Shown in pieces: positions 4,442 to 24,222 of a stretch of 64,000 nt of DNA (the stretch's first letter is position 1; the number at the start of each line of letters is the position of its first letter). Origin of the DNA: Arenimonas caeni (GTDB lineage: Bacteria > Pseudomonadota > Gammaproteobacteria > Xanthomonadales > Xanthomonadaceae); contig NZ_KZ679084.1 of assembly GCF_003024235.1 (NCBI RefSeq), positions 336,684-400,683 on the forward strand, in the 5' to 3' direction. Below the pieces are notes generated by a model, which worked only from the letters and a program-made list of their open reading frames with translations, had not been told where the DNA came from and made no database searches. The position numbers were made by a program, and so were the translations under genes.

Positions 4442-4496
4442 GGCACGCGAAAAATTCGCGGCGCGGCGCTGGCCCGCTGAGGGCAGACTCGGCGGC

Positions 4497-4607: not shown

Positions 4608-4628
4608 GGCCCTGCCCCACCCGCCCGA

Positions 4629-5291: not shown

Positions 5292-5436
5292 AGCCCTTCC
5301 CCCGGAAGACCCTTGTGGGGCGGACTATGCCACAGGGGCCGCGCAGGCGCCCTGGACCTGGTAGTTGCCGATTTTGCAGAGCCGCCGAGGCGTCGCGCCA
5401 CTGGAGGCCTGGGATGCAGGGCGGCTGAGCCCCCGC

Positions 5437-7827: not shown

Positions 7828-7983
7828 CGATGTCCCCTGGTGATTCCCTCACAGGATTATGGGGGGCGCGTCACGGGCCATTCGGGGCTGGGCGGCTGCG
7901 AATTTTTCTCAGCCTCCGTTGACCCTGGTCCCCTGATGCCTTCCGCTACGATGCGGTCAGGCAAGGGGAACCGGGGAAACCAC

Positions 7984-8169
7984 ATGTACAAGTTCGTCAC
8001 CGTCAGCGGCAGCTGCGGCAGCGCCTACGACATTGGCCACTGCGAGCGCACCACCAACGACATGCAGTCCAAGGGCTTCGAGCTGGTGCAGGTCTACCAG
8101 ACCAGCACCGCCGGCTGCTGCGGCCCCAACTCCACGCTCGTGATGGTGTTCCGCCACGGTGGCGGCTGA
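7984..8169 (+). CDS. Small DUF4177-like protein
   Basis: A 61-residue protein. I chose the ATG at 7984 because it follows a purine-rich GGGGAACCGGGG leader and begins MYKFVTV, the usual opening of DUF4177-type proteins. The core DMQSKGFELVQVYQ...VMVFRH also matches that family, where the two strands pack on a short helix. It carries a CC pair and two other cysteines. The stop overlaps the GTG start of the next gene by 11 nt, so translational coupling with the DUF2085-like membrane protein is likely. The function is unknown. Confidence 0.65.
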   Translation: MYKFVTVSGSCGSAYDIGHCERTTNDMQSKGFELVQVYQTSTAGCCGPNSTLVMVFRHGGG

Positions 8170-8749: not shown

Positions 8750-8768
8750 CCCAAGGAGCGACACCGTC

Positions 8769-10220
8769 ATGAAGAAGCTGCGCGCCTTGCCCTGGCTGCT
8801 CGGCGCTTGCGCGCTGCTCGCCGCCGGCTGCGGGGGCGAGCCGTCGACGGGGCCCATAAGCATTTCGACGGCGGGCCAGGCCCGCCCCGCCGAGCCCATG
8901 GCGACGCCCGAAGCTACAGCCGCTGCAACGCCTGAGCCCGACGCCGACCCCGCTCGCACCGCCGTGCTGCCCGGCAGCAGCCCGCGCCACCACGCCCTGG
9001 TGTTCGGCAACAGCGCCTACCCGCACGGCGACGCGCTGACCGCGCCGGCGCGCGATGCCGCGCTTATGGCCCGCGCGCTGCGCGCGCGCGGCTACCAGGT
9101 GCGGCTGAGCCTGGACCGCGACTACGCCGGGATGGTGGAAGACATCGAGGCCTTCGCCGAAACCTCGGAAGGCGCGCAGGTGCGCGTGCTGTATTTCGCC
9201 GGCCACGGCTTCGAGTTCGACAGCGAGAACTACCTGCTGCCGGTGGACATCCCGGCGCCGATAGCCGGGCTCGACCGCGACCAGGTGCGCAGCCGCGGCC
9301 TGCCGCTCAACCGCCTGCTGGCGGACCTGGAGGCCGAGGGCGGCACTCTGGTCGGCATCATCGACGCCTGCCGCGTGCTGCCGGCGCGCGGCGCCGCCGA
9401 CACGCCGACGCTGGGCGAGCAGGCGGCGCCGCAGGGCAGCATCCTGGCCTTCGCCACCGCGCCCGGCCAGGTGGCCATGGACAGCCTGCGCAGCTTCGGC
9501 GTCGAGCAGGACCATTCGCCCTTCACCTACTTCCTGGCCAACCACCTGCTGGCGCCGGAAACGCGGCGCTGGGACCAGGCCTTCCAGGCCACCTACGGCA
9601 TCGTGCGCAACCAGACGCGCGGCCGGCAGGAGCCGTGGACGAACTACAAGGTGACCGAAGTGCCGGAGATCGGCCCGGCACCGGCGCCCGCCAGCGGCGG
9701 CGCGCGCGATGCCAACCCCTTGGGCATCGAACTGCGCCCCGAGCGCAAGGCTGCCGCGCTTTACTGGCAGCGCGAGGCCGGGGCGATCTGGAAGCTGGCA
9801 CGCGACGGCGCCACCACCGACCGCCAGCTGGCTCAGCGCGCCGCCGAGGGCGACGACCTGGCCGCACTTGCCGCCGTCTTCCGCGTGCCCGAGGACGGCC
9901 GCGACCCGGCGCCGCTGCTGCGCCTGCTGCAGCGCCCGGCCGACGCCGGCCACGCCCTGGCCCAGGAAGAAGCCGGCAACCGACTGTGGGCCGCGAAGGC
10001 GCACGACGCACAGGGCCGCAGCGCGAAGTACTGGTGGCAGCTGTCCTGCGCCAATGGTTTGGGCTCGGCCTGCACGCGCCTGGCCATGGCCGGCGACGGC
10101 AGCCCCGATGAGCAAGCGCGGGCGATGGCCCAGGGCTTCGCCGAAATGTTCAGCGGCTTCAGCCAGGCCATGGAGGCCGACCTGCAGCGCAACCGCAACC
10201 AGGAGGACGACGAACCATGA
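8769..10220 (+). CDS. Caspase-like (C14) lipoprotein with Sel1-like tail
   Basis: A 483-residue predicted lipoprotein with lipobox LAAGC (lipidated Cys21) and a Pro/Ala-rich linker. The caspase p20-like domain runs about 73-290. HHALVFGNSAY opens it, YFAGHG carries the catalytic His (residue 146) and IIDACR the catalytic Cys (201), so the dyad is intact. The Arg after the Cys resembles metacaspase/orthocaspase active sites. The C-terminal region (about 340-465) has Sel1-like helical repeats such as YWWQLSCANGLGSACTRLA. A signal peptide and lipid anchor would place this peptidase in the periplasm, unusual for caspases. It overlaps the next gene by 4 nt (ATGA), so the two are co-translated. Confidence 0.85.
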   Translation: MKKLRALPWLLGACALLAAGCGGEPSTGPISISTAGQARPAEPMATPEATAAATPEPDADPARTAVLPGSSPRHHALVFGNSAYPHGDALTAPARDAALMARALRARGYQVRLSLDRDYAGMVEDIEAFAETSEGAQVRVLYFAGHGFEFDSENYLLPVDIPAPIAGLDRDQVRSRGLPLNRLLADLEAEGGTLVGIIDACRVLPARGAADTPTLGEQAAPQGSILAFATAPGQVAMDSLRSFGVEQDHSPFTYFLANHLLAPETRRWDQAFQATYGIVRNQTRGRQEPWTNYKVTEVPEIGPAPAPASGGARDANPLGIELRPERKAAALYWQREAGAIWKLARDGATTDRQLAQRAAEGDDLAALAAVFRVPEDGRDPAPLLRLLQRPADAGHALAQEEAGNRLWAAKAHDAQGRSAKYWWQLSCANGLGSACTRLAMAGDGSPDEQARAMAQGFAEMFSGFSQAMEADLQRNRNQEDDEP

Positions 10221-10927
10221 GCCCGCGCAACAAGACCCTGGCCTGGCTGCTGGGCCTGCTTGGCCTGGCGGTGCTGGCCTTCGTGGCCGGCCGCCACTAC
10301 CTGGCGCCGCCACCCGCCGACGTGGCCGAGACTCCGGCCGAAGAAGAGGTGCTGCCGCCCTGGGACTTCGAATGGCGCGACGGCGACGTGCGCGGCATCG
10401 ACCTGCCCTCGCACGTGCGCGTGGGCGACCAGCGCGTGCCCATCCGCCACCTGGCCGACCTGCAGAGCGAGCCCGGCGAGGACAAGCTGGCCTTCCTGCT
10501 GCGCGTGCGCACCCACCTGGTGGACTTCTCGCACGCCACCCGGCGCGAGGGCTGCGCCGAGATTTGCCAGGCGCCTGACGGCAGCTACAGCGTGCGCATG
10601 ACCACCAACGACGCCGCCCTGTACTGCACCGTGGCGCCGATCTGCCAGGCCGGCCACGCCAGCACCGGCGAGGGCATCCACAGCCACTGCCCGCGCCGCA
10701 ACGGCATCCGCGCCAGCCTGGCCGACGAGGTGCTTTCGGGCGGCAAGATCCGCCGCCGCCAGCCCATCGCCTCCTGCGACACCGACGTCTTCTCGGCCCT
10801 GGACTTCCGCGGCCGGCGGCCCGGCTGGCTGGCCGGGCGCCTGGCCCTGCACATGCACGAGGGGCCGCAGAAGCTGCAGCGCTTTGGCGAACCCATCAAC
10901 GAAGCCAGCGCCCCCACCGCGCCCTAG
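10217..10927 (+). CDS. Membrane-anchored protein with JAB/MPN-like metal signature
   Basis: A 236-residue protein with one N-terminal transmembrane helix (about 8-24) and a periplasmic body. The segment 111-170 has the spacing of a JAMM/JAB metallopeptidase: Glu111 or Glu115, then HSH at 155-157 and SLAD with Ser167 and Asp170. The known motif is E, about 40 residues, H-S/T-H-P, several residues, S-x-x-D. The extra Cys between HSH and Pro and several other cysteines (113, 117, 137, 143, 158) are unusual and suggest disulfides. It is co-translated with the caspase-like lipoprotein. The family call is inference from motif spacing only. Confidence 0.6.
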   Translation: MSPRNKTLAWLLGLLGLAVLAFVAGRHYLAPPPADVAETPAEEEVLPPWDFEWRDGDVRGIDLPSHVRVGDQRVPIRHLADLQSEPGEDKLAFLLRVRTHLVDFSHATRREGCAEICQAPDGSYSVRMTTNDAALYCTVAPICQAGHASTGEGIHSHCPRRNGIRASLADEVLSGGKIRRRQPIASCDTDVFSALDFRGRRPGWLAGRLALHMHEGPQKLQRFGEPINEASAPTAP

Positions 10928-10945
10928 CGGGGGCAAAGCCCCCGC
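10927..10945. terminator. Perfect GC hairpin between convergent genes
   Basis: GCGGGGGC, loop AAA, GCCCCCGC; an 8-bp perfect stem starting on the stop codon of the plus-strand gene and 15 nt before the stop of the convergent minus-strand gene. No clear T-tract lies on either strand, so it may be a barrier or stability hairpin rather than a standard intrinsic terminator. Confidence 0.5.
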
Positions 10946-10959
10946 CGGGCGAGCCTTGG

Positions 10960-12630
10960 TTACTTGCTGGCGTCGAGCACCTTCGCCACGTCCACCAGGC
11001 CGTGGCGTACAGCCAGGTCCCGCAGGCTGACCTGCTCGCCATCCCAGTCCATCGGTGCGGAGACATCCGCGCCGGCCTGGGCCAACATCGGGATCACTTC
11101 GGCCAGGAAGTTGCCGTCGATCTCGTAACGGTTTGCGTCCACCAGCACCGTCCAGTGCACGGCGCGGGTGCCTCCCGCTGCCGCGCCGTCTGCCTTCGCA
11201 CCTGCAGCGAGCAGCGCGGCCACGAGGTCCGCCCGGCGCGACTGCAGGGCCAGGCTGAGCGGCGTATGGCCTTCCCGGTCCGCGCCGTTGGGGTCCGCAC
11301 CCGCCTTCACCAGCAGGGCCAGTGCTTGCGCCCGCGCCGCAGACGCGGCGCCGACGCGGCGGCCCCACATATCGCTGTCCTTGCGCTTGGTGTCCAGCAC
11401 CAGCAGATGCAGCGGGTTACGGCCCTCGCGCGTGGCGATGCCGGCCCTGGCGCCCTTTTCCACAAGGCCCGCCAGTTCATCGGGCCGGCAGCCTGCCTCC
11501 CAACTACGCCCCTGCACGCCCTTGAACTGGCGCACGCAGCGAAGCAGGCGCGTCTGGCCTTCGCTGTCGGCCTGGTTGATGTCGGCCCCCCCGGCCAACA
11601 GCACCGGCAGCACGTCCGGATGGGCCACCACCACCGGGTAGGTCCAGCGGCTCACCGGAAAACTGAAGCGGCCGGCCACCGGGTCACCGTTGTAGCCAGC
11701 GGGCAGGCCGTCGTCCACCTTGACCTGCCCTTCGTCGAGCAGGAAGCGTGCCGTTTCCGCGTTGGCCCGGTCGCCGGCGATGGCCCGTACGAAGGTTTCG
11801 GAAACACCCGGCGAGATAAAGCCATCGGGCCCGTAGTGCACCAGGCGCGACGAATCGCCGTACTTCTCGGTCCACAGGCCGGTTTTTTCGCCATCCTCGC
11901 CGTAAGTCCCCGATTCCACCAGGTCGCCGGCTTCGTTCCAGGCTTCATGTTTACCCACGGGCTTGTCCGCCCTGTACTCGCCGCGGCTGGCGGGCTTGCC
12001 GTCAGGGTGCCAGGTTTCGCGCAGGCCCTGCTTCTCGCCCGCCACATAGTGGGAGCGGCCGACAAGCTGACCCTCGGGGCTCCAGGCCCTCTGCTCGCCC
12101 TCCGGTTCGCCTTCGGCATTGAAGTGGGCCTCGCCGACCAGCTTGCCGGTGTCGCAGCTCCACGTCTTCTCGAGGCGCAGCTTGCCGTCGTCGAATTCCT
12201 TGCGGCCTTTGTCTTTGCCGTCGTCGCACCAGGTTTCCACGAGTTCCGCCTCGCCCTCGTCGTACTCGTGGCGGGAGACCAGGATGCCGTCCGGGTTCCA
12301 TTCCTGCTGGACACCATCCTTGACCGGCCTTTCCTTCTCCTTGTCCCAATAGACCACCTGCCGCGACTGGGGCTCGCCGTTGGCATGGAACATTTCCTGC
12401 ACGCCGTCCACGTACCCGTCGGAGAACTCGAACCGCGCCTTGGTCTTTTCCCCGTTCCGGACGACGAGGATGCCCGTGAAGGGCTCGCCTTCGATTTCAA
12501 GCACATCTTTGCCGGACGAGATCAAACGTTCGAACTCCGCCTCGGTGAGTTCGTGTTCGGTGGTGCAGCCGGCCAGACCAAGAACAATGGCGGCCATGAG
12601 CGCGCTGCGGCGCAATGCGAGAGTTTTCAT
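10960..12630 (-). CDS. Lipoprotein with MORN-type repeats and ankyrin repeats
   Basis: A 556-residue lipoprotein (lipobox GLAGC, Cys22). Residues about 60-275 hold eight or so short MORN-variant repeats of the YwqK/toxin-antitoxin type (for example DGVQQEWNPDGILVSRHEYDEG and QGLRETWHPDGKPASRGEY). Residues about 280-550 are ankyrin-like, with recognisable units HPDVLPVLLAGGADINQADSEGQT and ALALLVKAGADPNGADREGHTPLSLA. Both repeat types bind proteins, so a scaffold or inhibitor role at the envelope is plausible. It overlaps the preceding lipoprotein gene by 4 nt. The combination of MORN and ankyrin in one lipoprotein is uncommon; no specific partner can be named. Confidence 0.8.
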   Translation of the reverse strand: MKTLALRRSALMAAIVLGLAGCTTEHELTEAEFERLISSGKDVLEIEGEPFTGILVVRNGEKTKARFEFSDGYVDGVQEMFHANGEPQSRQVVYWDKEKERPVKDGVQQEWNPDGILVSRHEYDEGEAELVETWCDDGKDKGRKEFDDGKLRLEKTWSCDTGKLVGEAHFNAEGEPEGEQRAWSPEGQLVGRSHYVAGEKQGLRETWHPDGKPASRGEYRADKPVGKHEAWNEAGDLVESGTYGEDGEKTGLWTEKYGDSSRLVHYGPDGFISPGVSETFVRAIAGDRANAETARFLLDEGQVKVDDGLPAGYNGDPVAGRFSFPVSRWTYPVVVAHPDVLPVLLAGGADINQADSEGQTRLLRCVRQFKGVQGRSWEAGCRPDELAGLVEKGARAGIATREGRNPLHLLVLDTKRKDSDMWGRRVGAASAARAQALALLVKAGADPNGADREGHTPLSLALQSRRADLVAALLAAGAKADGAAAGGTRAVHWTVLVDANRYEIDGNFLAEVIPMLAQAGADVSAPMDWDGEQVSLRDLAVRHGLVDVAKVLDASK

Positions 12631-12998
12631 CCGCCCAGACCCTCCATGCCGGCGGCGGAGCCAATCATGATCCAGCCGCTATCGGCCTTGCGCACGCGCA
12701 CCGTTACCGCCTTGTCCTTCACCGGAACCATCGGCGTATTCATCGAATAGATGATGTCGCACTGATGGGCCTCGCCTGCCTTCTCGCAACCGACCAGTTC
12801 GAATTGCGTCAGCTCGTATCTTTCGATGTTCCGGGCGAGGCGCTGGCCGGCCATCGCGACGATCTGCTCGTTCAGGGAGTCCAGGTGCCGCTCCACCGCG
12901 GCCCGGGCCTGCGTTTCCGAAGGTCCGCTGCTGCAGCCCGCCAAGCCAAGCGCGCCGAGCAGGGCCAGTGCGCCCCCGATCTTCTTCATTTGCGTCAC
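12627..12998 (-). CDS. Small lipoprotein, unknown function
   Basis: A 123-residue lipoprotein: signal peptide from MKKIGGALALLGALG with lipobox GLAGC. The ATG four codons in (MKK) is an equally good start. The mature domain has a helix (QARAAVERHLDSLNEQIVAM) and then strands that include two cysteines (VGCEKAG, QCDIIYS), which could form a disulfide. The end resembles small NTF2/cystatin-like folds (VRVRKADSGWIMIGSA). It is translated just before the MORN/ankyrin lipoprotein and probably works with it. Confidence 0.75.
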   Translation of the reverse strand: MTQMKKIGGALALLGALGLAGCSSGPSETQARAAVERHLDSLNEQIVAMAGQRLARNIERYELTQFELVGCEKAGEAHQCDIIYSMNTPMVPVKDKAVTVRVRKADSGWIMIGSAAGMEGLGG

Positions 12999-13135
12999 GT
13001 TGTGTCCCCTGGTGTCATGGATACCCCGGCGGTGGGAGCCGATCGCGTCCGTACCCGGGGAGATTCCAGACTAGCGCCTGACCACATCCAGGCCCATGCG
13101 GGCCGGGTGGGAATTTTTCTCGGCGCCGCGGTTTG

Positions 13136-13711
13136 CTAGAAGGCCTTGACCAGCAGGATGAGCAGCCAGGGCCCGAAGAAGACCAGGAAAATGAAGCCGA
13201 GCAGCGCCAACACGATGAGCAACAGCACCTTGGCCAGGCCCCAGGCGGCACGGCCGGCGCTGGCCACGGTGACCGGCGCCTCGCGGGTGACGTGCGGATT
13301 CGGGATGCGCGCCGAGGACTTCACCCGCCACAGCCAGCCCACGACCGGCGGCACCAGCACCAGCGCCAGGAAGGCGCCGAGCCCGTAGTTGATCAGCTCG
13401 TCGGTGGCCAGGCGCCGGGCATCGAGCCACAGCGCGCCCAGGCCCAGGCCCCACCAGAGCAGGCCCCAGCCCGCCCCGCGCGCGAACGCGCCGGGCAGCG
13501 GCTCGACGCGGCTGGTGTGGCTATAGGCGCGGGACAGCCAGATCTCCTGGGACCGTCGCTTGAAGGCAATGCCCCAGCACAGTGCCAGGAAGGCATAAAC
13601 GGACAGACCGACCCACGCCACGCTGAAGGAACGCATCTGCTCGGCGCCGGCCAGCGCCACCAATCCGAGGAGACCGAGCATCAGGGTTGCCAGGAATAGT
13701 TGCGCGAACAT
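13136..13711 (-). CDS. Four-helix integral membrane protein, unknown
   Basis: A 191-residue protein with about five hydrophobic segments (about 4-22, 30-48, 78-94, 108-126 and 163-188). No conserved motif or family is recognised. It ends with a long hydrophobic helix and a short basic tail. It is the first of a minus-strand run with the two lipoproteins downstream, separated by 137 bp. An A-rich word (reading GGGAAAGATTCGC on the coding strand, 13768-13780) lies 57 nt before its start, like that seen before several other genes here. Confidence 0.7.
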   Translation of the reverse strand: MFAQLFLATLMLGLLGLVALAGAEQMRSFSVAWVGLSVYAFLALCWGIAFKRRSQEIWLSRAYSHTSRVEPLPGAFARGAGWGLLWWGLGLGALWLDARRLATDELINYGLGAFLALVLVPPVVGWLWRVKSSARIPNPHVTREAPVTVASAGRAAWGLAKVLLLIVLALLGFIFLVFFGPWLLILLVKAF

Positions 13712-13810
13712 CGGGAGCTCCGTTGTGGCCCTGGGTCATTTGAGCCGCAGCCAGCCGGCGCACCCATGCGAATCTTTCCCAGCCCCGCCGAGGGGCCGCG
13801 GGGGCGTGGC

Positions 13811-14015
13811 CTAGACCCTGTAGTACTCCCGGTACCACGCCACGAACTTCGCCACGCCCTCCTCAACCGGCACCACCGGCCGGTAGTCGACGTTGGCGAT
13901 GAGGTCGGGGACATCGGCCTCGGTGTCTGGCACGTCGCCGGCCTGGGGGGGGCAGCACCTTCAAGAGAGTCCTGGTGAACTGGAACAGCGCCATGTCGAG
14001 CCGGACCCAGGAGCC
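13811..14015 (-). pseudogene. Remnant of a UDP-glucuronate 4-epimerase-like gene
   Basis: 13811-13957 matches the last 49 codons of the intact epimerase gene at 23212 with about 92 % identity by eye, ending in WYREYYRV and a TAG stop. 13971-14015 matches an internal block of the same gene (23629-23673) at about 89 %, in the same order and orientation; the roughly 270 bp between them are missing. Read in frame, the second block gives GSWVRLDMALFQFTR against [15 protein letters not shown] of the intact protein. It is a decayed or displaced gene end, and marks the left border of the island. Confidence 0.85.
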
Positions 14016-14356
14016 TCGCTAGAGGCGCGCCACGCAGTCTCCGGGAACCTTGTGCAGACCGGGCCTGCACCAGCGACACCTGCGCCAGCAGCTTGCGATG
14101 CGCCAGTAGCCGGAGTCGACTGCCGACAGCAACTCCGAAAGACGCTCCCGCGGCCGATCACAGCGTGCTGACTCGTCAGCACCGCGAACCGCCTGGGGCC
14201 TAGCGGGATGGCCATGGCCGGCGCATCCACAAGCCCTCGAGCCCGCGCTACCGGAAGGCTGCTTGGCATAGCCCTTACACCCCCTCCCCGCCGTTACGCT
14301 TGGGCTGCAGGTCGTATGGCTTTGGAAATGGGCGCTGTCTGACCGCCGGGCTTAGC

Positions 14357-14397
14357 TTGCATGTGAGCCAAAAAGGCGTATAAACGATCATATATGA
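14357..14397 (+). promoter_or_regulatory. hipBA promoter with palindrome over the start codon
   Basis: TTGCAT (14357-14362), a 16-nt spacer and TATAAA (14379-14384) form a good sigma70 promoter. Transcription would start at about 14391, almost on the ATG at 14394, implying a leaderless message. The perfect palindrome TCATATATGA (14388-14397) covers the start codon and is a likely HipB operator for autorepression. The rest of 14016-14356 upstream shows no convincing reading frame. Confidence 0.6.
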
Positions 14398-14717
14398 GCC
14401 TGCACACCCGACCACTACCTATGTCGCCGGAGACCGTCGAGGCCCTGACGGGCCTGGGCCGCGCCATCCGCGATGCACGCCTTGCCCGAAAGCTGCGTCA
14501 CGAGGATTTGGCCTCGCGCGCCGGCATCAGCGTGGCGACGCTCAAGCGCCTTGAGAGGGGTGACCCGACCTTGGCCATCGGCCGGTTCCTTGAGGTCCTG
14601 ACCGCCCTGTCGCCCTCCCTGCTTGCTGACCTGGTGGGGACGGTTCGCGCAGATCCCACGGGCGATGCGCTGCGGCGCAAGGCCATGGGCGAGCGGTCGA
14701 GACGGGAGGACTTCTGA
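14394..14717 (+). CDS. hipB: HipB-like XRE-family antitoxin/repressor
   Basis: A 107-residue helix-turn-helix protein. The HTH_3 domain spans about 18-75: LGRAIRDARLARKLRHEDLASRAGISVATLKRLERG. The C-terminal tail is basic and ends SRREDF. In HipBA modules this protein neutralises HipA and represses its own operon. The TGA overlaps the hipA ATG by one base. The start at 14394 is supported by the promoter just before it; the second ATG (14421) is an alternative and has no ribosome-binding site either. Confidence 0.85.
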   Translation: MSLHTRPLPMSPETVEALTGLGRAIRDARLARKLRHEDLASRAGISVATLKRLERGDPTLAIGRFLEVLTALSPSLLADLVGTVRADPTGDALRRKAMGERSRREDF

Positions 14718-15904
14718 TGCGGCTCTACCTGTGGGCTCCCTTGGGTGGGCAGTGGCAGGTCGCGGCTCGGCTCGACTGGGCACGTGGTGTCGGCGCCTTC
14801 CGGTACGCCCCGACTTGGCTGGAGACGGCCGGCGCCTATCCGCTGGACCCGCTGAACCTGCCGCTCGAGGACGCGGAGCGCGTCATCGAGGACAACAAAG
14901 GGATTCCGGGCGTGCTCTCGGATGCCGGGCCCGACCGCTGGGGCCGCCGGCTGATCGAACGACTGGCCCAGCGCCCCCCGCGGGACGAGGCCGAGTGGGT
15001 GCTGGCCACCGCCGGCAGTGGCAGTGGTGCGGTACGCGCCTCCCTGTCCCGCACCGCGCTTGCTCCGGTGCGGACGCCCTATGCCCAGGTGACGCTGGAG
15101 CAGCTCGAGGAAGCCTCGCGAACCTTGGCCGAAGGCGGGTTCCCGCCGCCGCCGCTGTACGAAATCCTTTGCGTGCAGAGTGGCGCCTTGGGTGGTGCCC
15201 GCCCAAAGGCCGCGATGAGCATCGACGGCCGCGAGGTCATTGCCAAGTTCCAGCAGCCGCAGCACGACACGGTCGACGTGCCCAAGGTCGAAGCCGCCTG
15301 TCTGGCGCTGGCGCGTCGGTCGGGCATCGACGCCATCAATGCCACCCTCGTCACTGTCCACGGCAGGAGCGTCTTGCTCGTGGACAGGTTCGATCGCCGC
15401 GGTGGCGAGCCCGTGCACTACCTGAGCGCCAGGAGCCTGCTCAACGTCTATCGAGCCTCCGAGCGCGACACCGTGGCACCGGCGGGTCGGGCCACTTACG
15501 CCGCCATGGCTGCGGCGGCTCGTCGCATCGGCGTGGAGGGCGCGGGACCGGAGCTATTCCGTCGGATGGCGTTCAACTACGCCATCGGAAACACTGATGA
15601 TCACCTGCAGAACCACGGCTTCCTGTTCGATGGGGCCTGGCGACTGGCGCCGGCGTTCGATCTGGTGGCCCAAGGGGGCGAGAGCCTCGCCATCGGCGCG
15701 GGTCGACAGGGTAGGGTTCGGACCAGAGGGAACGTGCTGTCCGGTGCAGGTGATTTTGGCCTGAAGCCGCGAGAGGCCGAGGCGCTGTTGGAGCAGGCGA
15801 TCCAGGCGGCAAGCGGGCTGGGCGATGAGCTTCACCGGCTCGCAATGCCGGCGGGTGAGCGGGCGCAGGTGCTGCAAAGGCTGTGCGCCGAGGCGCAGCG
15901 CTAG
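14717..15904 (+). CDS. hipA: HipA-family serine/threonine kinase toxin
   Basis: A 395-residue HipA-like kinase. GGARPKAAM marks the ATP/P-loop-like region, NTDDHLQNHGFL (near 290-302) carries the catalytic Asp and Asn, and APAFDLV is the Mg-binding DFG-like motif. Characterised HipA phosphorylates glutamyl-tRNA synthetase and causes dormancy; relatives have other tRNA-synthetase-linked targets. At 395 residues it is shorter than E. coli HipA (440), mainly at the N-terminus, similar to the HipT/short-HipA types, though the N-terminal domain is still largely present. It forms a one-base-overlap operon with hipB inside the putative island. Confidence 0.9.
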   Translation: MRLYLWAPLGGQWQVAARLDWARGVGAFRYAPTWLETAGAYPLDPLNLPLEDAERVIEDNKGIPGVLSDAGPDRWGRRLIERLAQRPPRDEAEWVLATAGSGSGAVRASLSRTALAPVRTPYAQVTLEQLEEASRTLAEGGFPPPPLYEILCVQSGALGGARPKAAMSIDGREVIAKFQQPQHDTVDVPKVEAACLALARRSGIDAINATLVTVHGRSVLLVDRFDRRGGEPVHYLSARSLLNVYRASERDTVAPAGRATYAAMAAAARRIGVEGAGPELFRRMAFNYAIGNTDDHLQNHGFLFDGAWRLAPAFDLVAQGGESLAIGAGRQGRVRTRGNVLSGAGDFGLKPREAEALLEQAIQAASGLGDELHRLAMPAGERAQVLQRLCAEAQR

Positions 15905-16478
15905 GCCCGACGTAGGAAGATCAACTCCCTGCACGAACCTCAGGGTTCTGCCCTCCACTGGTCAACCCCGAAAAGCTAAACCCTCACCATTTGGGGGGTT
16001 TAGCACCGCCGTGCCCGGGGGTCGCTGCGGCAGACTAGGCCTCCCATCGCTCGTACCGATCTGGCCCGCAAGGACGCGGGCCGAAGGCAGAAGGACACGC
16101 CGTGCGAAACACTCGAGATGCCACGCCGTTGGCGCGAATCCCGCTACGCGCACCCCTCAGGGCGCCGCGGACACTAGGCCCTCAACCTCCACTGGTAAAC
16201 GGGCCAGGCCAGCAGGCCGAGAAAGGCCACTGCGCCGGTGCCCATGCCGCGAACAAAGGCGGCTGCCAGTTCTGCCACGACGCTCGGATTTGCGGTGTCC
16301 ATGCCCGCGATTGCACACCAATTCGCGCGCCCGGGGCAAGGCGTGGACGAGGAAACGCGGACGCCCGACCGATGAAACACCCCCTCTGGAGGAGGGGGGT
16401 TTCGGGAGGCACAGGGCCATCGCCTTGATCAAACTCTCGCCCACCTCAATCGCATCCCCGCCTTAAGAGACCACGCCA
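15905..16478. other. Gene-poor stretch with two hairpins
   Basis: 574 bp without a convincing gene. GCTAAACCC (15975-15983) and GGGTTTAGC (15996-16004) form a perfect 9-bp stem about 70 bp after hipA. A second hairpin built on ACCCCCTC...GAGGAGGGGGGT lies near 16378-16402. Overlapping frames occur on both strands but none has a ribosome-binding site or recognisable product. The best candidate is a 42-residue hydrophobic frame on the minus strand (16174-16302), which I could not support. Confidence 0.6.
15975..16004. terminator. Perfect 9-bp hairpin downstream of hipA
   Basis: GCTAAACCC and GGGTTTAGC enclose a 12-nt loop. It lies about 70 bp downstream of the hipA stop. No T-tract follows, so it could end the hipBA transcript or serve as a recombinase-binding structure; the sequence alone does not decide. 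Confidence 0.4.
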
Positions 16479-17051
16479 ATGCCCCTGCCTGCTGAGAAAA
16501 ACCCTACCGCTGTTGCCACGACCCTGCTGATTCGTTTGGTGGGTGAGCAGGCCATCCCCTCGTGGGCGCACTCGCTCGAACACGTGCTCGGACGGATCAT
16601 GCTTGCGATCGCAGGCCTGATCCGGCTGCGACCCGACCTGCCCCGGCTGACGCGGCTGGCGCAGGAGTGCCACCGCGCCGCGGTCAATTTGCTGGCCAGC
16701 GAGCTGGGCGCGCACGACACCTCGCGACTGCAGCCGCCGCAGCGCAATACCTCCTTCGGCGCCTTTCGCGACTATCCGCACTACTCGGCCCTCACCGGCG
16801 TGGCGCCGAAGGAGTTCATGCATTTCTGCGCCGAGGCTAGACCCCAGAAATTCTTTTTTGGGGGTACCCCCGCCAGAAAGGGGTCTGAGCGGACAAACAA
16901 AGGTCGTGAACTCGGCAAGCGTAAATGCGTCAAAAACTCCGGACTTTCGATCCCCGTGGGCGGGGCGCAGGGCGCTAGGCTTTTCTCGACCGATCCCAAA
17001 CACCCTTCGGGCCCGCAGGACGTTGGCCCGCTCAACTGGAGGAATCACTAG
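16479..17051 (+). CDS. Unknown protein; C-terminal half possibly not native
   Basis: A 190-residue frame. The first 120 residues (to FMHFCAEA, about 16838) have strong GC3 coding bias and helical character (SLEHVLGRIMLAIAGLIRLRPDLPRLTRLAQECHRAAVN), and include RDYPHYSALTGV. From RPQKFFFGG onward the sequence runs through a palindromic element and looks non-coding, so the original C-terminus may have been lost or shifted. It sits directly upstream of the giant recombinase gene with 2 nt between the stop and that ATG. I recognise no family. Confidence 0.45.
   Translation: MPLPAEKNPTAVATTLLIRLVGEQAIPSWAHSLEHVLGRIMLAIAGLIRLRPDLPRLTRLAQECHRAAVNLLASELGAHDTSRLQPPQRNTSFGAFRDYPHYSALTGVAPKEFMHFCAEARPQKFFFGGTPARKGSERTNKGRELGKRKCVKNSGLSIPVGGAQGARLFSTDPKHPSGPQDVGPLNWRNH
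16839..16886. repeat. 48-bp nested palindrome before the giant recombinase gene
   Basis: Outer 7-bp inverted arms AGACCCC (16839-16845) and GGGGTCT (16880-16886) flank a perfect 12-bp palindrome GGGGGTACCCCC (16860-16871), with CAGAAA repeated on both sides. It coincides with the point where the upstream frame loses coding character. It could be a recombination site, the end of a small insertion, or a terminator (T6 run at 16854-16859). Confidence 0.5.
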
Positions 17052-17053
17052 GC

Positions 17054-20000
17054 ATGGACGCGCCGAGAAACCCCGCCTACCACCGCTTGTACACGCTGAT
17101 CCGGCAGGCTTTGCCGGACCACCTTCTGCCGAGCGACCTGATCGCACCGCACGAGCTGGCGCGCGGGTTGCAGATGCTTTTCTCCGGCCTTGCAGGCCTG
17201 TACCCGCAGAATTCCCTGTGGCGCAATCTAGCCACCGAGGCCAGCGAGATCGAACAGGCAACCCGCGCCGAGGCCTTTGACCATGGCTCTCGTCACGACA
17301 GCCAGGCCAACAACCCGATCACCGGGCACATGGTCGAACTGCCCGTGTACGCGAGTCTGGTTCACTGGGGACCCCTCAATCAGCGTCAGGTGCGCAGCCG
17401 CCTTTCGGCGCTGGCGCTGGCGCCCATCGTTGTACCCCGCCTGACGGCAACCGACCTGCCCAACGATCCGAAGATCGGGCGCGATGCCGCTGCGGAACGC
17501 CTCCCGAACGCCTGCAATCTCGTGCTCACCGAGCTGAGGAAAACGGATAACTCGACCTTGCTCGAACGAATCGCACACGATTTCAACGAGCACCTGACGT
17601 GGGGCGAGGACGGCTTGCAGCTGTTCTGCCAGCCGGCGCTGCCCGTGCCCGCGGGGCCCGCGCGCTGGGTGGATGTCTATAAGGCGGTCAACCGCCTGAT
17701 CGAGACGAGGCCTCGCCTCCGCCTCCAGCCGACGCGAATCACGGGCGAGCCCGACCCGCTCGAGGCGGTCAGGACGCACTACTTCCCTGAGGGTCCCATC
17801 TCGCCGGACGAAGCGGGATTGGCTCCCGAAGACCGGGGCACGCACCGCTATGTCGAGGCGATCGAAGGCCCCGCGTCCGTGGATGACTGCCCGTCCGCCC
17901 TGCGGCTCAACAGTGGCTACGGCTTGCTCTGCGCCATGCCGCCTTGGCATCTCACCGCGCTGCCGCCGAGCGATGCGCACGCACTCTCCCAGAGCATCCT
18001 CGCGAGCTTGGGCAAGGACGAGGAGGTGGGCGGAATCGTGCTGGGCGCGCTGTCCATCCTGACGGCGGTGCCGACCGAGATGCTCATGGACGCCTCCATA
18101 GAGCCGAGCCTCGAGGCGATGCTCGCTGGGACGCTGCCGCCCACGCCCACCCTCGCGTGGGACTGCGAGCGCTTGTTGGCGTTCTTGCCCTCCAAGAGGC
18201 CGGAACGGGCACATCGCCGACAGCCCGAGGATCGGTGCCTTGAGGATCACCAGACCGGCGTGGTGGTCGGCATCCCGGACTCGCTCGCCCGATTGGTGCG
18301 GGCACGGTTACCGGGCTCGGTCGGCACCTTGCGCGCCGCCTTCCCGAAGGCCGACCAGGCGTGGCCCGGCACGCTTTCTGAGATCAAGGCGAAGCTGCGC
18401 CTCGCCCTCACGCCCACGCGCGTGCGCCAGTGCGTGAGCATGGAGATCCTGCGCCAGACCCAGTCGACCTGGATGGCGTCGACCGCACAGCCCGACTCGG
18501 GAATGGTTCATATCGTGCTGGCCCACTATGCGGCGCTGCCGGCTGAGCGTTTGTACGACGTCCACCGGGCAGCCTGCGCAGCGTTGTTCGGCGATGAGCT
18601 CACGCCGCCGGAGTTGGAGGATCGGCAGCGTTCGCTGTTATCGCGGTGGATCGGATCGGAGCTGATCCCGGACCTGGATGAGTGGCATGGCCTGATCGAA
18701 GACGCGTTTACACGCGTGCAGACGCAGATTGCGCGCCCCGCCGACACCTTGGACGCGGCGGTGGCATGCGCCAACAACGTCAATCGACTCGTCCATCACT
18801 GCCTGCGGGTGGGAACAGCCGCCCGCCCCCATGACGGGCTGTTCAACCTACGGCAGGATCTGGACGTCGACCTGCGCCTGGCGCAACTGGCGGAGAAGCA
18901 GTCCAACTTGCGCGACACCACCAGGCTTTGCCCTCTGGATCCCGTGTTGTGCGACCTGGAGGCGGCGCGGCGGCGCATGGTGCGGTGGATCGCCGACCGC
19001 CTGTCAGACGTGGACCCAACGCTGGCCGGCGGGCTGCTCTCCACGCTCGGGGGCCACGAGGCGTATCCGTCGGCGCCCGTGCTGTTCGTGCTCAAGAAGC
19101 AGCGCGGCGAGTGGCGGGCCCTGCCGATCAACGGCGAGGAGGAGTGCGCGCTCTGGCCGCAGTCCTTTCCGTGGGCGCGCAACGCCAACCGCGGGGCGCT
19201 CGTGCAGTTCCTCTTGGGCCGCGGAATGCGGGAGGATGCGATCCGGGCGCTCTTGGGGCACTCCGACTTCGCCGGCACCGTAGCGGACCCGAACTGTCCG
19301 CAGGCGCCTGCGGCGCTGCTGGACGAACTGCGGCCACACCTGTCCGCCTTCCTGACGCGCCTCGGCGTCCGGCCCTTGGCGTGGCCGCAGGACAAGGGGG
19401 CCGATCCGAACAAGACCATCGCCCTCGTGACGTCGCCCACGCCCCTATTTGGCGACTTTGACGCCGAGCGCGTCCACCAGCGGACCCAGAGCCGGTTGCT
19501 GGTGCTACGGATGCAGGCGGTCTTCCACGAGGTGGCGCTCTCGCGCTTGCCGGCCGAGCTGATCTTGCCGCGAATCAGGGACCTGCTGACGCAGGCGCTG
19601 GCCGACGATCCCCGGCAGCGGGAACGGGCGCTGGAGCGGGTGGATCGGAAGCTCTCCAGCCTCAGCCTGTCCCAGTTGAAGCAGCGCTTTCGCTCGAGGG
19701 CGTCGGTGCGCAGGCACCTGATGCCCCGCATCGAGCACCCCACGCCCTACGCCCGCGAGGAGATCCGCGCCATCCGCCTCGGTGGCCGCCTGCGTGAGCA
19801 GGTGCTGGCCCGCCTTGAGGCGCAGTGGCCCGCGGCGCTGGACGAGGGGGTGGCGAGCGCGCAGGCGCTGGTGCTCCTGGCGGCTATGGCGGCAGGGGCG
19901 CTCGTGCCCAAGGATAGCCTGATGCGCTTTCAGAAAGCGCTGCCCGACCTTTACGTCGATGGTGACCAGGTCTGGATTGAATACACGGAGAATCACCAAA

Positions 20001-22408
20001 CGTGGCGTTGGGTGGCCGACAAGCTCACCGCCACCTTGCTGGTCGGTTACCACGCCCGGTTTGGGCATCGCCCCGCAGTCCCAGAGGAGCAGATCCTCAG
20101 GGCGGCGGACGCGTGGCTCGTGCGTCTGGCTGGCGGGTGCGGACTGCCCGACGGCACGCCGCGCTCGCGGCTGCGCTGGCTGCGCACGCACCTGTTGGCG
20201 TGGTTTCGCCATCACGTGCCCGGGACGCTGCTGTCCCATGCGGACGCGAGCCGTCCGAGCGCCGCGTTGCCGCGCAGCGCGCTCGCGCGCCTGAAGGGGC
20301 ACTACGTGAAGACGCCGCCGCGCCGGATGCGGCGGAGCACGCCCCGCATCAAGGCGCTGAACGTGCCCAAAAAGCAGCAAATCGACGCCGCGCTCGAGCA
20401 ACTGGGCCGGGAGGCGGGAATCGCGGGCACGTCGCTCGGGGACACGGAGATGGCGTCGCTGCGCAAGGAGCTGGCCACGCTGTGCACGCCGAAGTCGGGG
20501 ACCGCCAGGAACGCGCTGACCGTGGCAGCGGAGGCCTTCCTTCGCTTCGTCTACAGCCTGCGCACCGAGGGCGGACGGCTGAAGCCGGTCCTCGCGGAAT
20601 CGACCATTGGCGCGTATCTCTCGCCCATCCGGCGCCTGCTCGAGCTCCTTCCTGAGGACACCCTGCTCGACGTCGACCCGGCTGAGCGCGAGGCGATCTA
20701 TCGCAAGGTGTACGTTTCGGCTGGCCAATCCGAGCGCTCGCGGCGCCTCCTGGCCCTGCAGATGTTCCACGAGATGCTCGAGGACCTCTGGGGCGCGGAG
20801 CCGATCGACTGGTCCGCCGTTACGGCCGATGCGGCGCGGGGCGCCTCCCGGATCGATGCGAACGTCGTGTGGCCGCATGAGCGGGAAAGGGCCGTCGCCT
20901 TGCTCCGGCACGGCCCGCTGCAGACCCAGGTGGAGAGGGAGGCGGCAGAGTTGCTGCTGCATCTGATGGCCGCCCTGGGGGCTCGCTTTGGCGAGGCGTT
21001 CCACCTGCGGCTGCGGGACATCGGGCACGAAGAGCGCTTCGCCCTGATCCGCCCCAACCGCGAAAACAAGAAGCTCAAGAGTGACGCCGCCACGCGGCGC
21101 GTCCTGCTGGCCGAGCGCTTGACGCCCCGCGGACGCGAACTGCTGCGTCGGACCGTGGCGCGGGTGCGACTGCGCGATCCTCACGCGGCGGATCTTCCGC
21201 TGTTTGGCGAGCCGCGCTCGCCGCGCCACCTGATGGATCGGGCCAGGGTGCATGCCCTGCTCACTCAGGCCCTGCGTCTGGCGACCGGCGATGCCAACGT
21301 GCGGCCGCACCACCTGCGGCACACCTACGCGAACGAGACCTACGCGCACTGGGTGGCCCCGACCACGGCGCGCGACCGGCAGGCACGCGAGGCACGGCGC
21401 GACCTGTTCGGCACCGACGTGCCCAGTCGGCGGGCCGTCGCCCATTGGGCCGTGACGCTCGGCCACGCCGACATGGAAACCGGGCACCTGGTTTACCTGC
21501 ACCAGCAGGAATGGCGCGTCGCGCAGGCCGCGACTTCGCTGCTGCCGCGCCTGGAACCGGCCCAGGCCACGGCCTTGTGGGGTCGGTCCACGCGTGCGCC
21601 CGGCACGCGGCACGCGCTGGTTCGCGCGCTCGCGGCGGGCAAGAGGTCGCTGGCGCCGTGGCGCGGCCTGACGCTGGCGCAGCCCCCGCGCGAGATGCCG
21701 CCCGACGAGACCGTCGACGCGGCCCCGCACTGGCCGGACACGGACGAGTTGCACCGCATCCTGACCCATCCCGCCAAGGAGCGGACGTCGGCCGTGGAAC
21801 TCGGCGCCCTGTTCGGTGTGGCGCCCGCGATGATGGCGACTCTGCTGGCGGGCGAGCGGGACGTCTACGAGGAGAGCCTGTACTTCCGCGGCCAGTTGCC
21901 TGCCGGCCTCGGCGACGGGAGGCCGTCGCAGTTTCGTGCCTGCCAGCTGACCCGGACGTTGCCCCCCGGCTTCCTGACCCTGCCGGGTCGCGAGCGGATC
22001 AACGCGCTGCCCGATACGCCGGAGCACCGGGCCCAGGCGCGCGCGGTCATCGCCCTGTGGCGCGACCGGGATCGCCGGGCGGACCGGCTGCAGCCGGAGA
22101 AAGTGCTGCTGGACGCGCTGCAGTGGTACCTGGCGATGGGCTGTAAGCCCAAGGATCTGGTGGTGCGGGTGCCGGACAAGGCCTGGAGGGCGTGGTGCCG
22201 GCGGCATCCCCTGTTCAAGGACGTCCGGGTCACGACGCTCAGCCCGACCAAGCCGTCCGACTGCCCGCCGCGCTTGCGCATCCGAGCCACCCACGCTTTC
22301 AAGCCGATCAACAGCGGCGCGGTCGCCTACCAGGCCCAGCTCTGGCTCGTGCGGGCGCTGGCCTCCGACCGCCATGGCCGGCCCGACACGCCCGCCCACC
22401 ACTCCTGA
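17054..22408 (+). CDS. Giant tyrosine recombinase with two recombinase-like domains
   Basis: A 1784-residue protein, some five times the usual integrase length. A complete catalytic set lies in the C-terminal part: Arg1311 (LGARFGE), Lys1339/1340, HHLRH with His1419 and Arg1422, LGH with His1471, and Tyr1481 (ETGHLVYLH). An earlier segment also fits the fold: Arg591 (GTAARPHDG), Lys615, Arg713 and LGHSDF with His736. The 24-residue Arg-Lys and 23-residue Arg-His spacings equal those of XerD, but the box II His is Asn710 and the nucleophile position holds Asp745, so this copy should be inactive. Residues 1-550 and 1490-1784 match nothing I know. The ATG follows GGAGGA by 11 nt. It is probably the integrase of the island. 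Confidence 0.75.
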   Translation: MDAPRNPAYHRLYTLIRQALPDHLLPSDLIAPHELARGLQMLFSGLAGLYPQNSLWRNLATEASEIEQATRAEAFDHGSRHDSQANNPITGHMVELPVYASLVHWGPLNQRQVRSRLSALALAPIVVPRLTATDLPNDPKIGRDAAAERLPNACNLVLTELRKTDNSTLLERIAHDFNEHLTWGEDGLQLFCQPALPVPAGPARWVDVYKAVNRLIETRPRLRLQPTRITGEPDPLEAVRTHYFPEGPISPDEAGLAPEDRGTHRYVEAIEGPASVDDCPSALRLNSGYGLLCAMPPWHLTALPPSDAHALSQSILASLGKDEEVGGIVLGALSILTAVPTEMLMDASIEPSLEAMLAGTLPPTPTLAWDCERLLAFLPSKRPERAHRRQPEDRCLEDHQTGVVVGIPDSLARLVRARLPGSVGTLRAAFPKADQAWPGTLSEIKAKLRLALTPTRVRQCVSMEILRQTQSTWMASTAQPDSGMVHIVLAHYAALPAERLYDVHRAACAALFGDELTPPELEDRQRSLLSRWIGSELIPDLDEWHGLIEDAFTRVQTQIARPADTLDAAVACANNVNRLVHHCLRVGTAARPHDGLFNLRQDLDVDLRLAQLAEKQSNLRDTTRLCPLDPVLCDLEAARRRMVRWIADRLSDVDPTLAGGLLSTLGGHEAYPSAPVLFVLKKQRGEWRALPINGEEECALWPQSFPWARNANRGALVQFLLGRGMREDAIRALLGHSDFAGTVADPNCPQAPAALLDELRPHLSAFLTRLGVRPLAWPQDKGADPNKTIALVTSPTPLFGDFDAERVHQRTQSRLLVLRMQAVFHEVALSRLPAELILPRIRDLLTQALADDPRQRERALERVDRKLSSLSLSQLKQRFRSRASVRRHLMPRIEHPTPYAREEIRAIRLGGRLREQVLARLEAQWPAALDEGVASAQALVLLAAMAAGALVPKDSLMRFQKALPDLYVDGDQVWIEYTENHQTWRWVADKLTATLLVGYHARFGHRPAVPEEQILRAADAWLVRLAGGCGLPDGTPRSRLRWLRTHLLAWFRHHVPGTLLSHADASRPSAALPRSALARLKGHYVKTPPRRMRRSTPRIKALNVPKKQQIDAALEQLGREAGIAGTSLGDTEMASLRKELATLCTPKSGTARNALTVAAEAFLRFVYSLRTEGGRLKPVLAESTIGAYLSPIRRLLELLPEDTLLDVDPAEREAIYRKVYVSAGQSERSRRLLALQMFHEMLEDLWGAEPIDWSAVTADAARGASRIDANVVWPHERERAVALLRHGPLQTQVEREAAELLLHLMAALGARFGEAFHLRLRDIGHEERFALIRPNRENKKLKSDAATRRVLLAERLTPRGRELLRRTVARVRLRDPHAADLPLFGEPRSPRHLMDRARVHALLTQALRLATGDANVRPHHLRHTYANETYAHWVAPTTARDRQAREARRDLFGTDVPSRRAVAHWAVTLGHADMETGHLVYLHQQEWRVAQAATSLLPRLEPAQATALWGRSTRAPGTRHALVRALAAGKRSLAPWRGLTLAQPPREMPPDETVDAAPHWPDTDELHRILTHPAKERTSAVELGALFGVAPAMMATLLAGERDVYEESLYFRGQLPAGLGDGRPSQFRACQLTRTLPPGFLTLPGRERINALPDTPEHRAQARAVIALWRDRDRRADRLQPEKVLLDALQWYLAMGCKPKDLVVRVPDKAWRAWCRRHPLFKDVRVTTLSPTKPSDCPPRLRIRATHAFKPINSGAVAYQAQLWLVRALASDRHGRPDTPAHHS

Positions 22409-22419
22409 GGAGACATCGG

Positions 22420-23208
22420 ATGCCCCTCGTTATTTCCATCCCCGCGATTTCGCCGGCCGAGTTCAGGCTGATGCGAGTTCAGGCTCATGCGACGCCCGCG
22501 ATCGAGAGTTTCGTGACGGCCATCTTCCGGAACGCTCGCGCCTCGGCAACCAGCAAGCCTTATCCGAACACCAAGACGTGGATGAATGCGCTGCAGATGG
22601 CCAAGAACCGAAGGCTGCTTACCTACGAGATCAACGTAGCACCACACGAAGCGCTGGTGGAGCGTGCGATTGAGACGACTTACCGGGAGTACACTGCCGA
22701 TGCGATCAACGCCCGGCCGTACCAGGCCCGGCGTCGCTCTCCGAACTACATGGCGAACAAGGCGATCAGGGAACTCGGATACCCGGTGGTGCTCGAACTT
22801 GCCGGGGAAAGGTGGACGTTCAACGTGCCGGAGCAGCCCTCTATTGCCGGACCGGGGTACTCTTACGAGGGCGTTATCTGCGCGCGGGACCTGGAGTGGT
22901 ACGGGCCTGAAAGGACGGTTCGCGGCGCGACGTGTTACCAAGCGCCAGCGCCGCCAGCGGCCATCGAAGGTCTGGAATCCCTGACGCCCCACCTGCCTCG
23001 GTTTGACCACCTGAGGGCGGGCGCCAAGCTTCGGCTTACTTTCCGCCAGGAGGACCGATACTTCAGCGCACAGCGAAAACACACCGACCGCAACAAGATG
23101 ATGGCCTTGGTCGGCCGCTTCCACTGCAGCGAGGACGGCATCTGGACCGATGATCGGTTGGTGCAGGTGTATGTGGTGCCCCTCCCCCTCCAGCCGCAGT
23201 TGTTCTGA
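22420..23208 (+). CDS. Unknown protein following the giant recombinase
   Basis: A 262-residue protein starting 11 nt after the recombinase stop, with a good GAGGAGA ribosome-binding site, so the two are co-transcribed. It opens with a hydrophobic beta-like stretch (MPLVISIPAISPAEFRLMRVQ) but no signal peptide. The middle is rich in Arg, Tyr and Asn (TYREYTADAINARPYQARRRSPNYMANKAIRELGY). No family is recognised. Its stop lies 3 nt from the stop of the convergent epimerase gene, so the island ends flush with that gene. A role as accessory factor of the recombinase is a guess from position. Confidence 0.6.
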   Translation: MPLVISIPAISPAEFRLMRVQAHATPAIESFVTAIFRNARASATSKPYPNTKTWMNALQMAKNRRLLTYEINVAPHEALVERAIETTYREYTADAINARPYQARRRSPNYMANKAIRELGYPVVLELAGERWTFNVPEQPSIAGPGYSYEGVICARDLEWYGPERTVRGATCYQAPAPPAAIEGLESLTPHLPRFDHLRAGAKLRLTFRQEDRYFSAQRKHTDRNKMMALVGRFHCSEDGIWTDDRLVQVYVVPLPLQPQLF

Positions 23209-23210
23209 GT

Positions 23211-23358
23211 CTCAGACCTTGTAGTACTCCCGGTACCACGCCACGAACTTCGCCACGCCCTCTTCCACCGGCACCACCGGCCGGTAGCCGACGTTGGCGA
23301 TGAGGTCGGAGACATCGGCCTCGGTGTCGGGCACGTCGCCGGCCTGCAGGGGCAGCAT
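23211..23358. repeat. Right copy of the duplicated epimerase 3' end
   Basis: This is the 3' end of the intact epimerase gene, about 92 % identical to 13811-13957 in the same orientation. The two copies bound the putative island. The longest exactly shared run starts at GTAGTACTCCCGGTACCACG (23221) and continues for about 30 bp, the best candidate for the crossover core. Confidence 0.7.
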
Positions 23359-24222
23359 TTCCATGATGGCCTTCTTGCCCAGGCATTGCTCGAGCACCTG
23401 AATGTAGCGCAGCAACTCCACCGGCTGCTCGTTGCCGATGTTGTAGAGCCGGTAGGGCGCCACGCCGCTGGTGGCCGGGTCGGGCGAGAGGCCGTTCCAG
23501 GCCGGGTCCTTGCCCGGCACGGTGTCGAGCGCACGCACCACGCCCTGCACGATGTCGTCCACGTAGGTGAAGCTGCGCTTGTGGTGGCCGTGGTTGAAGA
23601 CCTTGATAGGCTCGCCGGCCAGGATGGCCTTGGTGAACAGGAACAGCGCCATGTCGGGCCGGCCCCAGGGGCCGTACACCGTAAAGAAGCGCAGTCCCGT
23701 GCACGGAATGCCGTAAAGGTGGGCATAGCTGTGCGCCATCTGCTCGTTGGCCTTCTTGGTGGCCGCGTACAGGGTGAGCGGATGCTCGGTGGGCGAATGC
23801 TCCGAGAACGGCATCTTCAGATTGGCGCCGTATACCGAGCTGGTGGAGGCATAGACCAGGTGCTCGACGCCATGGTGGCGGCAGCCCTCGAGCACGTGCA
23901 GGAAACCGGTGACGTTGCTCGACACGTACACATGCGGGTTCTGGGCCGCGTAACGCACGCCGGCCTGGGCGGCCAGGTGCACTACCCGCTTCGGCTTGTA
24001 CTTGGCGAAGACCTCCTCGACCGCCGTCCGATCGGCCAGGTCGGCCGTGACGTGGGTGTAGCCCGGCAGCGCCTGCAGGCGCGCCAGGCGGGCGTGCTTG
24101 AGCGTGGGGTCGTAGTAGTCATTGAGGTTGTCGAAGCCAATGACTTCCTCCCCCCGGTCCAGCAGGACGTGGGCGACGTGGGAGCCGATGAAGCCGGCGG
24201 TGCCGGTCACTAGCATTCTCAT
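23212..24222 (-). CDS. NAD-dependent sugar epimerase, UDP-glucuronate 4-epimerase type
   Basis: A 336-residue extended SDR enzyme that most likely interconverts UDP-glucuronate and UDP-galacturonate for the polysaccharide repeat. TGTAGFIG (residues 6-13) binds NAD; YAATK holds the catalytic Tyr and Lys, with Ser in YASTSSVYG. The opening and the [15 protein letters not shown] block are characteristic of the CapI/LpsL family. It is high-GC like the chromosome, unlike the cassette next to it. Its 3' end is duplicated at 13811, and the final codons may have been delivered by the island. Confidence 0.9.

Follow-up and report, generated by a model that had tools for sequence, protein, structure and literature searches.

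Gene content of the locus

The window, a stretch of 64,000 nucleotides from Arenimonas caeni, contains a single gene for a tyrosine recombinase of two halves, A and B, each with a recombinase domain. The gene is found within a stretch that varies between strains and ends at an epimerase gene, and it is accompanied there by a hipBA-like pair, by the relic of another fused recombinase and by a small gene, D (Table 1).

Table 1. Features of the recombinase locus, in window coordinates
Feature	Position	Strand	Basis or remark
Strain-variable stretch	4446–23211		between gene 3443–4441 and the epimerase; first ~850 bp common to G021
Decayed second copy of epimerase 3′-end	13813–14015		136/145 identical to 23214–23357, plus a 43-bp piece
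hipB-like antitoxin gene	14394–14717	+	
hipA-like gene	14717–15904	+	PF07804
Relic of a different fused recombinase (N-terminal part)	16479–17051	+	75/113 aa identical to the G021 relative
Fused AB recombinase gene	17054–22408	+	1784 aa; open frame, full-length relatives
A half, residues 1–790	17054–19423	+	separate gene in split loci; from mapped split junctions
Tentative ‘domain 0’, residues ~310–530	17981–18643	+	possible recombinase-like segment; own arginines not conserved
Codon of invariant Tyr492	18527–18529	+	33/33 members, 4/4 held-out
First recombinase domain, residues 545–785	18686–19408	+	R591, K615, R624, N710, R713, H736; conservation and profiles
B half, residues 791–1784	19424–22405	+	split-junction mapping and locus scan
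Second recombinase domain, residues ~1170–1500	20561–21553	+	Pfam, NCBIfam, PHROGs; conservation
Small gene D, 262 aa	22420–23208	+	11 bp past the stop codon of the recombinase; unmatched in Pfam and PHROGs
Epimerase gene	23212–24222	-	3′-end borders the island

The presence of the island is variable among relatives. A tblastn search of nine same-genus stretches at this locus gave no match to the recombinase (E ≤ 1e-15). Both flanks were found in three of the nine (L120, L121 and L127), separated by gaps of 1.6, 0.7 and 3.2 kb, respectively, where the window has 18.8 kb; the stretches of the remaining six gave no epimerase. The relative G021 carries at the same locus a recombinase of 32–34% identity and a HipA-like gene. 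The decayed copy of the epimerase 3′-end in the window lies 9.2 kb from the epimerase gene, and a similar fragment of 177 bp is seen beyond HipA in G021. The DNA upstream of the relic also matches G021. The relic, directly upstream of the intact recombinase, is a sign of repeated occupation of the site, and the duplications of the epimerase 3′-end fit repeated integration at that gene end. The left epimerase copy includes sequence from further inside the gene and could therefore be a relic of the gene instead of an att site. In G021, a frame of 1167 residues (L014:3740–7243), autotransporter-like by eye, separates the epimerase 3′-fragment from the intact epimerase gene and suggests a second insertion at the same site.

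ARAGORN detected no tRNA gene within positions 3000–26000, and a search of the genome with PF00589 gave no further match inside the window. Flanking direct repeats were present at four of 34 loci and absent from the other 30; mismatched-pair controls gave 1/102 direct and 2/102 inverted repeats. The repeats at L013, L105 and L106 were rejected as att sites because they are IS copies (at L013 and L106 from frames judged by eye and from annotation), which leaves only the repeat of the window. The palindrome GGGGGTACCCCC, in the gap after the relic (16860–16871), was rejected as a shared end motif, since it occurs at no other of the 41 loci. Resembling D in size and place are a frame of 260 residues after B in G021, without significant similarity to D of the window, and one of 248 residues on a Ketogulonicigenium plasmid, without significant similarity to either of the two. 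Within 4446–13812, inspection by eye also noted a frame with a caspase-like look (8769–10220) and one with MORN-like/ankyrin-like repeats (10960–12630).

A conserved 1784-residue frame, fused or split

The recombinase frame is open throughout, and every residue named in an earlier note on this DNA is present at the position given for it. A tblastn search identified a protein of 32% identity over residues 20–1771 in another species of the genus and a third protein in the same order, for a total of three out of 199 genomes, that of the window included. Profile searches found relatives in 12 of 397 genomes of the order and, with the A-half profile, in 13 of 369 genomes of the class and 14 of 299 of the phylum (a few percent); the samples overlap, with the genome of the window among those counted. 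The same genome has a second, divergent fused recombinase of 1768 residues on contig 27 (9.8 kb; L055:4359–9665). An AbiEi gene lies upstream of this second copy (L055:1895–2527).

We scanned 42 loci, of which 41 gave a match (L094 gave none). The 36 loci with both halves were used for a 36-row alignment and a tree, leaving out L060, L065, L067 and L068 (A only) and L061 (broken A). A set of 33 full-length members resulted from further dropping L066, L088 and L097, whose frames are truncated or overlapping. The gene is fused at 18 of the 36 loci and split into adjacent genes A and B at the other 18, with 756–908 residues in A (531 in L088, cut by the contig end) and 726–1206 in B. When the longest-frame starts are taken, the two genes overlap in all 18 split pairs, by 1–97 bp in 17 and by 244 bp in one. 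Three split junctions map to residues 790, 790 and 782 of the window protein. In a quick maximum-likelihood tree (870 columns, midpoint root), the fused/split label needs two changes, compared to a mean of 12.4 for shuffled labels, and none of 500 shuffles was as low. Seventeen fused loci form one clade (SH-aLRT 92, under the starred level), and one fused member, L064, is placed on a very long branch among the split ones. Since the tree needs two changes only, the fusion is probably old.

These data bear on whether the long frame might be a pseudogene or have arisen by an artificial joining of two genes, the latter being one of the conditions under which the earlier note would have withdrawn its reading. 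The existence of split A/B pairs is in line with such an artefact, yet the pairs keep the same A-then-B order, and so show that the long frame is none. Fused genes occur at 18 loci under ten family codes, with frames of 1725–1882 residues in 17 and of 1278 in L066. The independent full-length homologues, joined for the most part in a single clade, contradict the artefact, which we consider scarcely credible. Homologues of equal length do exist, and the 1784-residue frame is real and conserved.

The window protein (P0001) had no match among 72,556 plasmid records or 50,697 phage records, and the L030 protein had none among the plasmid records; the A half of another branch matched four plasmid records. 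Five scans of viral contigs with five queries revealed no relatives, and the protein could not be placed among the integrases of prophages by relatives on phages.

B is an ordinary catalytic unit

The catalytic set of the second domain comprises R1311, K1342, H1419 (H/Y), R1422, H1471 and Y1481. Pfam Phage_integrase matched residues 1298–1430 with 30.4 bits (cut-off 27.1), an NCBIfam XerD-like model matched residues 1180–1427 far under its cut-off, and a PHROGs search of the window protein gave an integrase match. Over the 33 full-length members R1311, K1342, H1471 and Y1481 are invariant, R1422 is kept in 32, and column 1419 is H in 26, Y in six and M in one; H1471 and Y1481 are each found in 35 of the 36 loci. 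The earlier note had recognized here a complete catalytic domain, which the integrase match and the conserved residues bear out, but had assigned the β-hairpin lysine to K1339/K1340. This residue is K1342, conserved in 36/36. With the R-K-H/Y-xx-R-H/W-Y set and the integrase profile, the B half belongs to the tyrosine recombinases and is, judged by sequence, a complete and ordinary catalytic unit.

A recombinase domain with a conserved pocket in A

No Pfam or NCBIfam model covers any of the 14 A halves scanned. PF00589 was matched in one only (E 0.058), and NCBIfam gave one chance match (E 0.075). The pocket residues R591, K615 and R624 are R/K/R in 36/36 loci and, together with R713, are invariant over the 33 full-length members; R713 and G735 are present in all 34 loci having a letter at the column. 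Position 736 is H in 30 and W in four of these 34 loci (29 and four, respectively, of the 33 full-length members). The column of N710, which the earlier note had described as replacing the box II His, is indeed Asn in 25/33 members.

We compared profiles of residues 560–785 by hhalign, with non-overlapping segments for the first and second domains. The segment aligned in register with 12 Arm-type integrases, at E 7.4e-6 and P 84%, and with the second domain of the same protein, at E 6.4e-7 and P 92%. Repetition from another alignment gave 6.1e-6 for the Arm-type integrases and 9.2e-6 for the second domain, and smaller alignments of 14 rows gave E 4.3e-4 (P 34%) for the first against the second domain. 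In a PDB profile search, A found XerA with E 1.7e-4 for the whole chain (0.036 and 64 for its two stretches alone) and XerD with 0.067, the NxxR...LGH stretch being aligned to box II and GH of XerD. The single lines are modest, and together with the conservation they make a convincing case for a genuine recombinase domain, of the integrase type and with R-K-R-H/W in register. By the same conservation and profile comparisons, the first catalytic set (Arg591, Lys615, Arg713, His736) is beyond chance.

Two further statements about this domain find no support in the form given. Asp745, placed at the nucleophile position, is not conserved, and the domain has no conserved tyrosine C-terminal to box II to take the role, with Tyr in at most five of 33 members in any column from 736 to 795. 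The domain had also been called degenerate, but its pocket residues R, K, R and H/W are conserved to about the same degree as those of the second unit. According to PMC4381057, the last position of the pentad is occupied by Trp in Cre and Flp and by His in most other recombinases. H and W, the two residues seen at position 736, are thus both known from functional enzymes (PMC4381057), a point in favor of the proposed activity of A. The first unit is probably not simply degenerate or dead, and may itself be catalytic.

An invariant tyrosine ahead of the pocket

Y492 and Y1481 are the only invariant tyrosine columns over the 33 full-length members (the next best is 26/33). The only invariant lysines are K615 and K1342, and the only invariant arginines are R591, R624, R713 and R1311. 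Y492, R591, K615, R624, R713 and H736 are each kept in four of four held-out members; L101 and L104 are 37–59% identical to members used, so that the far relatives among the four are L105 and L106 only, and L102/L103 were not counted, being the same loci as L035/L032. Under three other alignment modes with 37 A halves, Y492 was found in 36, 37 and 37. The N-terminal 550 residues had been said to match nothing, a description that is incomplete in view of this tyrosine. Y492 closes a segment that resembles box II and the nucleophile, and a box-I-like TGR or GxR stretch precedes it in several members.

In segment comparisons by hhalign, residues 180–400 gave E 6e-4 against the second domain and 8.7e-4 against SE-type IntA; for residues 310–530 the match was to the first domain (1.1e-3). 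Residues 310–530 against the Arm-type integrases gave 0.33, residues 430–560 gave 0.11 or worse against everything, and an unrelated segment, 790–1000, reached 0.0086 in the same comparisons. Because of these misses and of the value for the unrelated segment, a recombinase-like ‘domain 0’ around Y492 is put forward tentatively. Its own arginines vary (R in 14/33 at column 339 and in 18/33 at column 458). Y492 is thus kept without local arginines, and the next domain has R-K-R-H/W without a tyrosine; the simplest functional reading would be that Y492 serves that pocket. A precedent for a tyrosine from elsewhere is Flp, whose Tyr-343 is described as acting in trans (PMC4381057).

AlphaFold models from alignments of five sequences reached pLDDT 34 for the A half of the window and 46 for a relative's equivalent of W400–800, which is too poor for Y492 to be placed next to the pocket. 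In a Foldseek search with the low-confidence W400–800 model, the first 24 of 44 matches were Cre/Xer-type recombinases or topoisomerase IB, with low TM-scores, a best E of 0.01 and none at 0.001.

Neighbors at other loci

In the stretches fetched for 41 loci, we found an Arm-type integrase at 12 (nine split, three fused), a Xis-like gene at 11 and a Cro-like gene at nine (the small genes were named by eye), and at five a gene related to one that has an HD domain by Pfam in L063. A recurring module of Cro-like gene, Xis-like gene and Arm-type integrase, in some cases with the HD-related gene, was observed at L063:3651–5960, L038:1782–4277 and ten other loci, mostly with split AB. On a Ketogulonicigenium vulgare plasmid a small gene, A, B, D, HTH and hipA stand in a row, the first four being annotated as hypothetical. 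HipA-like genes are present at the window, L012, L038, L056 and this plasmid. The recombinase itself is not represented by any PADLOC model. Of 14 neighbor proteins submitted to PADLOC, 12 matched and two did not, a set that is no enrichment test because the proteins were picked by eye. The matches were to AbiE (L013, L032, L035, L055), restriction-modification (L030, L034), DrmB and a helicase-type protein (L031) and E1-E2 (L057).

Comparison with known recombinase systems

Recombinases of the XerD/Cre type have about 300–400 residues and one catalytic domain. The B domain has their whole canonical set, whereas the present protein holds two units in its 1784 residues. GInt, RIT and Tn554-type elements each have more than one tyrosine recombinase, in separate genes. 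The window protein shares the plurality, and differs in that both units are in one chain, with no third in the window island. PF13009 (Integrase_2), which we take to be the profile of GMT-type integrases, had no match in P0001 or in its own genome. In the open-access literature we found no fused or permuted tyrosine recombinase of this kind; the articles found to mention GMT are not devoted to its recombinases.

SE elements encode IntA, Tfp (a recombinase fold without RHRY), IntB and Srap, and GInts are similar (PMC10214605). As that paper describes them, SE elements resemble the present case in having several recombinase-type proteins from coupled genes, cargo islands, one recombinase fold with an unusual site and one protein called unusually large. 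They differ in that Tfp is reported without RHRY (PMC10214605), whereas A keeps R-K-R-H/W and a Tyr, and in that the window island has no IntA gene. We compared the halves with SE/GInt-type trios from plasmids, in small sets of 4–6 sequences each. A gave no significant match to the second and third proteins (E 0.12 and 0.3) and 0.0096 to IntA; B gave 6e-9 to IntA and 2.5e-4 to the second protein, which is similarity at the integrase level. An intA-tfp-intB-srap operon was not recognized, as the window has no second PF00589 match and A is unlike the trio proteins. Further marks of an SE element are a strand-biased circle and a 6-bp footprint. The fused recombinase may work like a multi-subunit recombinase system, with the SE/GInt trios as nearest analogues rather than demonstrated kin. 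With Flp, as portrayed in PMC4381057, it would share the principle of a tyrosine from elsewhere; each Flp chain has the canonical residue order, whereas here the tyrosine is ahead of the pocket.

Proposed organization and alternatives

We propose that the single chain combines two different subunits of the tyrosine-recombinase type, with A in front of B; in other bacteria these are encoded by two adjacent, overlapping genes. B would be the ordinary catalytic unit and A a second unit with its own pocket (R591, K615, R713 and H736), probably using Tyr492, which would reach the pocket by a permuted arrangement inside A or by Flp-style donation across subunits. The fusion would fix a 1:1 stoichiometry and the neighbor relation of the A and B units, and the most probable role of the protein is integration and excision of the island that carries hipBA, next to the epimerase gene. 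From the covalent pairing of an active and an inactive unit suggested in the earlier note, the pairing of two unlike units is retained and the inactivity of the first is not. We judge the explanation as a whole, with its conditional parts of catalysis by A, use of Tyr492 and mobility, to be evenly poised between right and wrong. Its most specific form falls somewhat short of that: one chain with two complete, unlike active sites, of which the first is permuted (Tyr492 before R591-K615-R713-H736), with both units alternately active and moving an island of the toxin-antitoxin or defense type. Several points weigh against the explanation. The segment around Tyr492 may be what is left, for structural reasons, of a preceding domain that has degenerated, most A halves have Asn in place of the box II His, and the nearby canonical integrase at 12/41 loci could be the real mobilizer. 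The scarcity of flanking repeats other than IS copies and the lack of matches among the phage records and viral contigs searched count on the same side.

A serious alternative, tenable although it is on balance improbable, is the one favored in the earlier note: A would lack catalysis and act as a structural subunit, binding DNA and keeping the synapse together, cleavage would be left to B alone, and Tyr492 and the pocket would be kept for binding of the DNA phosphate or for folding. The absence of a conserved tyrosine at the usual place and the Asn for the box II His in 25/33 members agree with it. So does the example of Tfp and GinC, folds without RHRY that are listed in PMC10214605 within the gene sets essential for SE/GInt recombination, a tfp mutant being reported there as unobtainable. 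Tfp and GinC are, however, reported to have lost the catalytic motif, whereas R, K, R, H/W and one Tyr remain invariant here across very divergent members. We consider it unlikely that the protein is instead a resident recombinase, or the DNA-binding part of a defense or toxin-antitoxin locus, and no mobility enzyme. HipA, AbiE, restriction and DrmB genes are indeed among the neighbors, but these were picked by eye and vary from locus to locus like cargo; moreover, the second site is intact, PADLOC lacks a model for the recombinase, and the stretch is absent from the three relatives in which both flanks were found.

Implications

With the two-unit reading, the family offers access to a question that is hard to approach with homotetramers. 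The subunits of ordinary tyrosine recombinases are identical and have to switch in alternation between an active and an inactive state. In a chain of two unlike units each site can be mutated separately, and it can be asked which strand each of them cuts. As far as the sequences tell, two unlike recombinase units were joined here long ago in a fusion that is found widely, and both units keep conserved catalytic sets, one in an unexpected order. Should Tyr492 be the nucleophile of the first unit, the catalytic residues of this enzyme class would not have the constant order that motif searches presuppose, and it would be worth looking again at proteins classed as dead recombinases.
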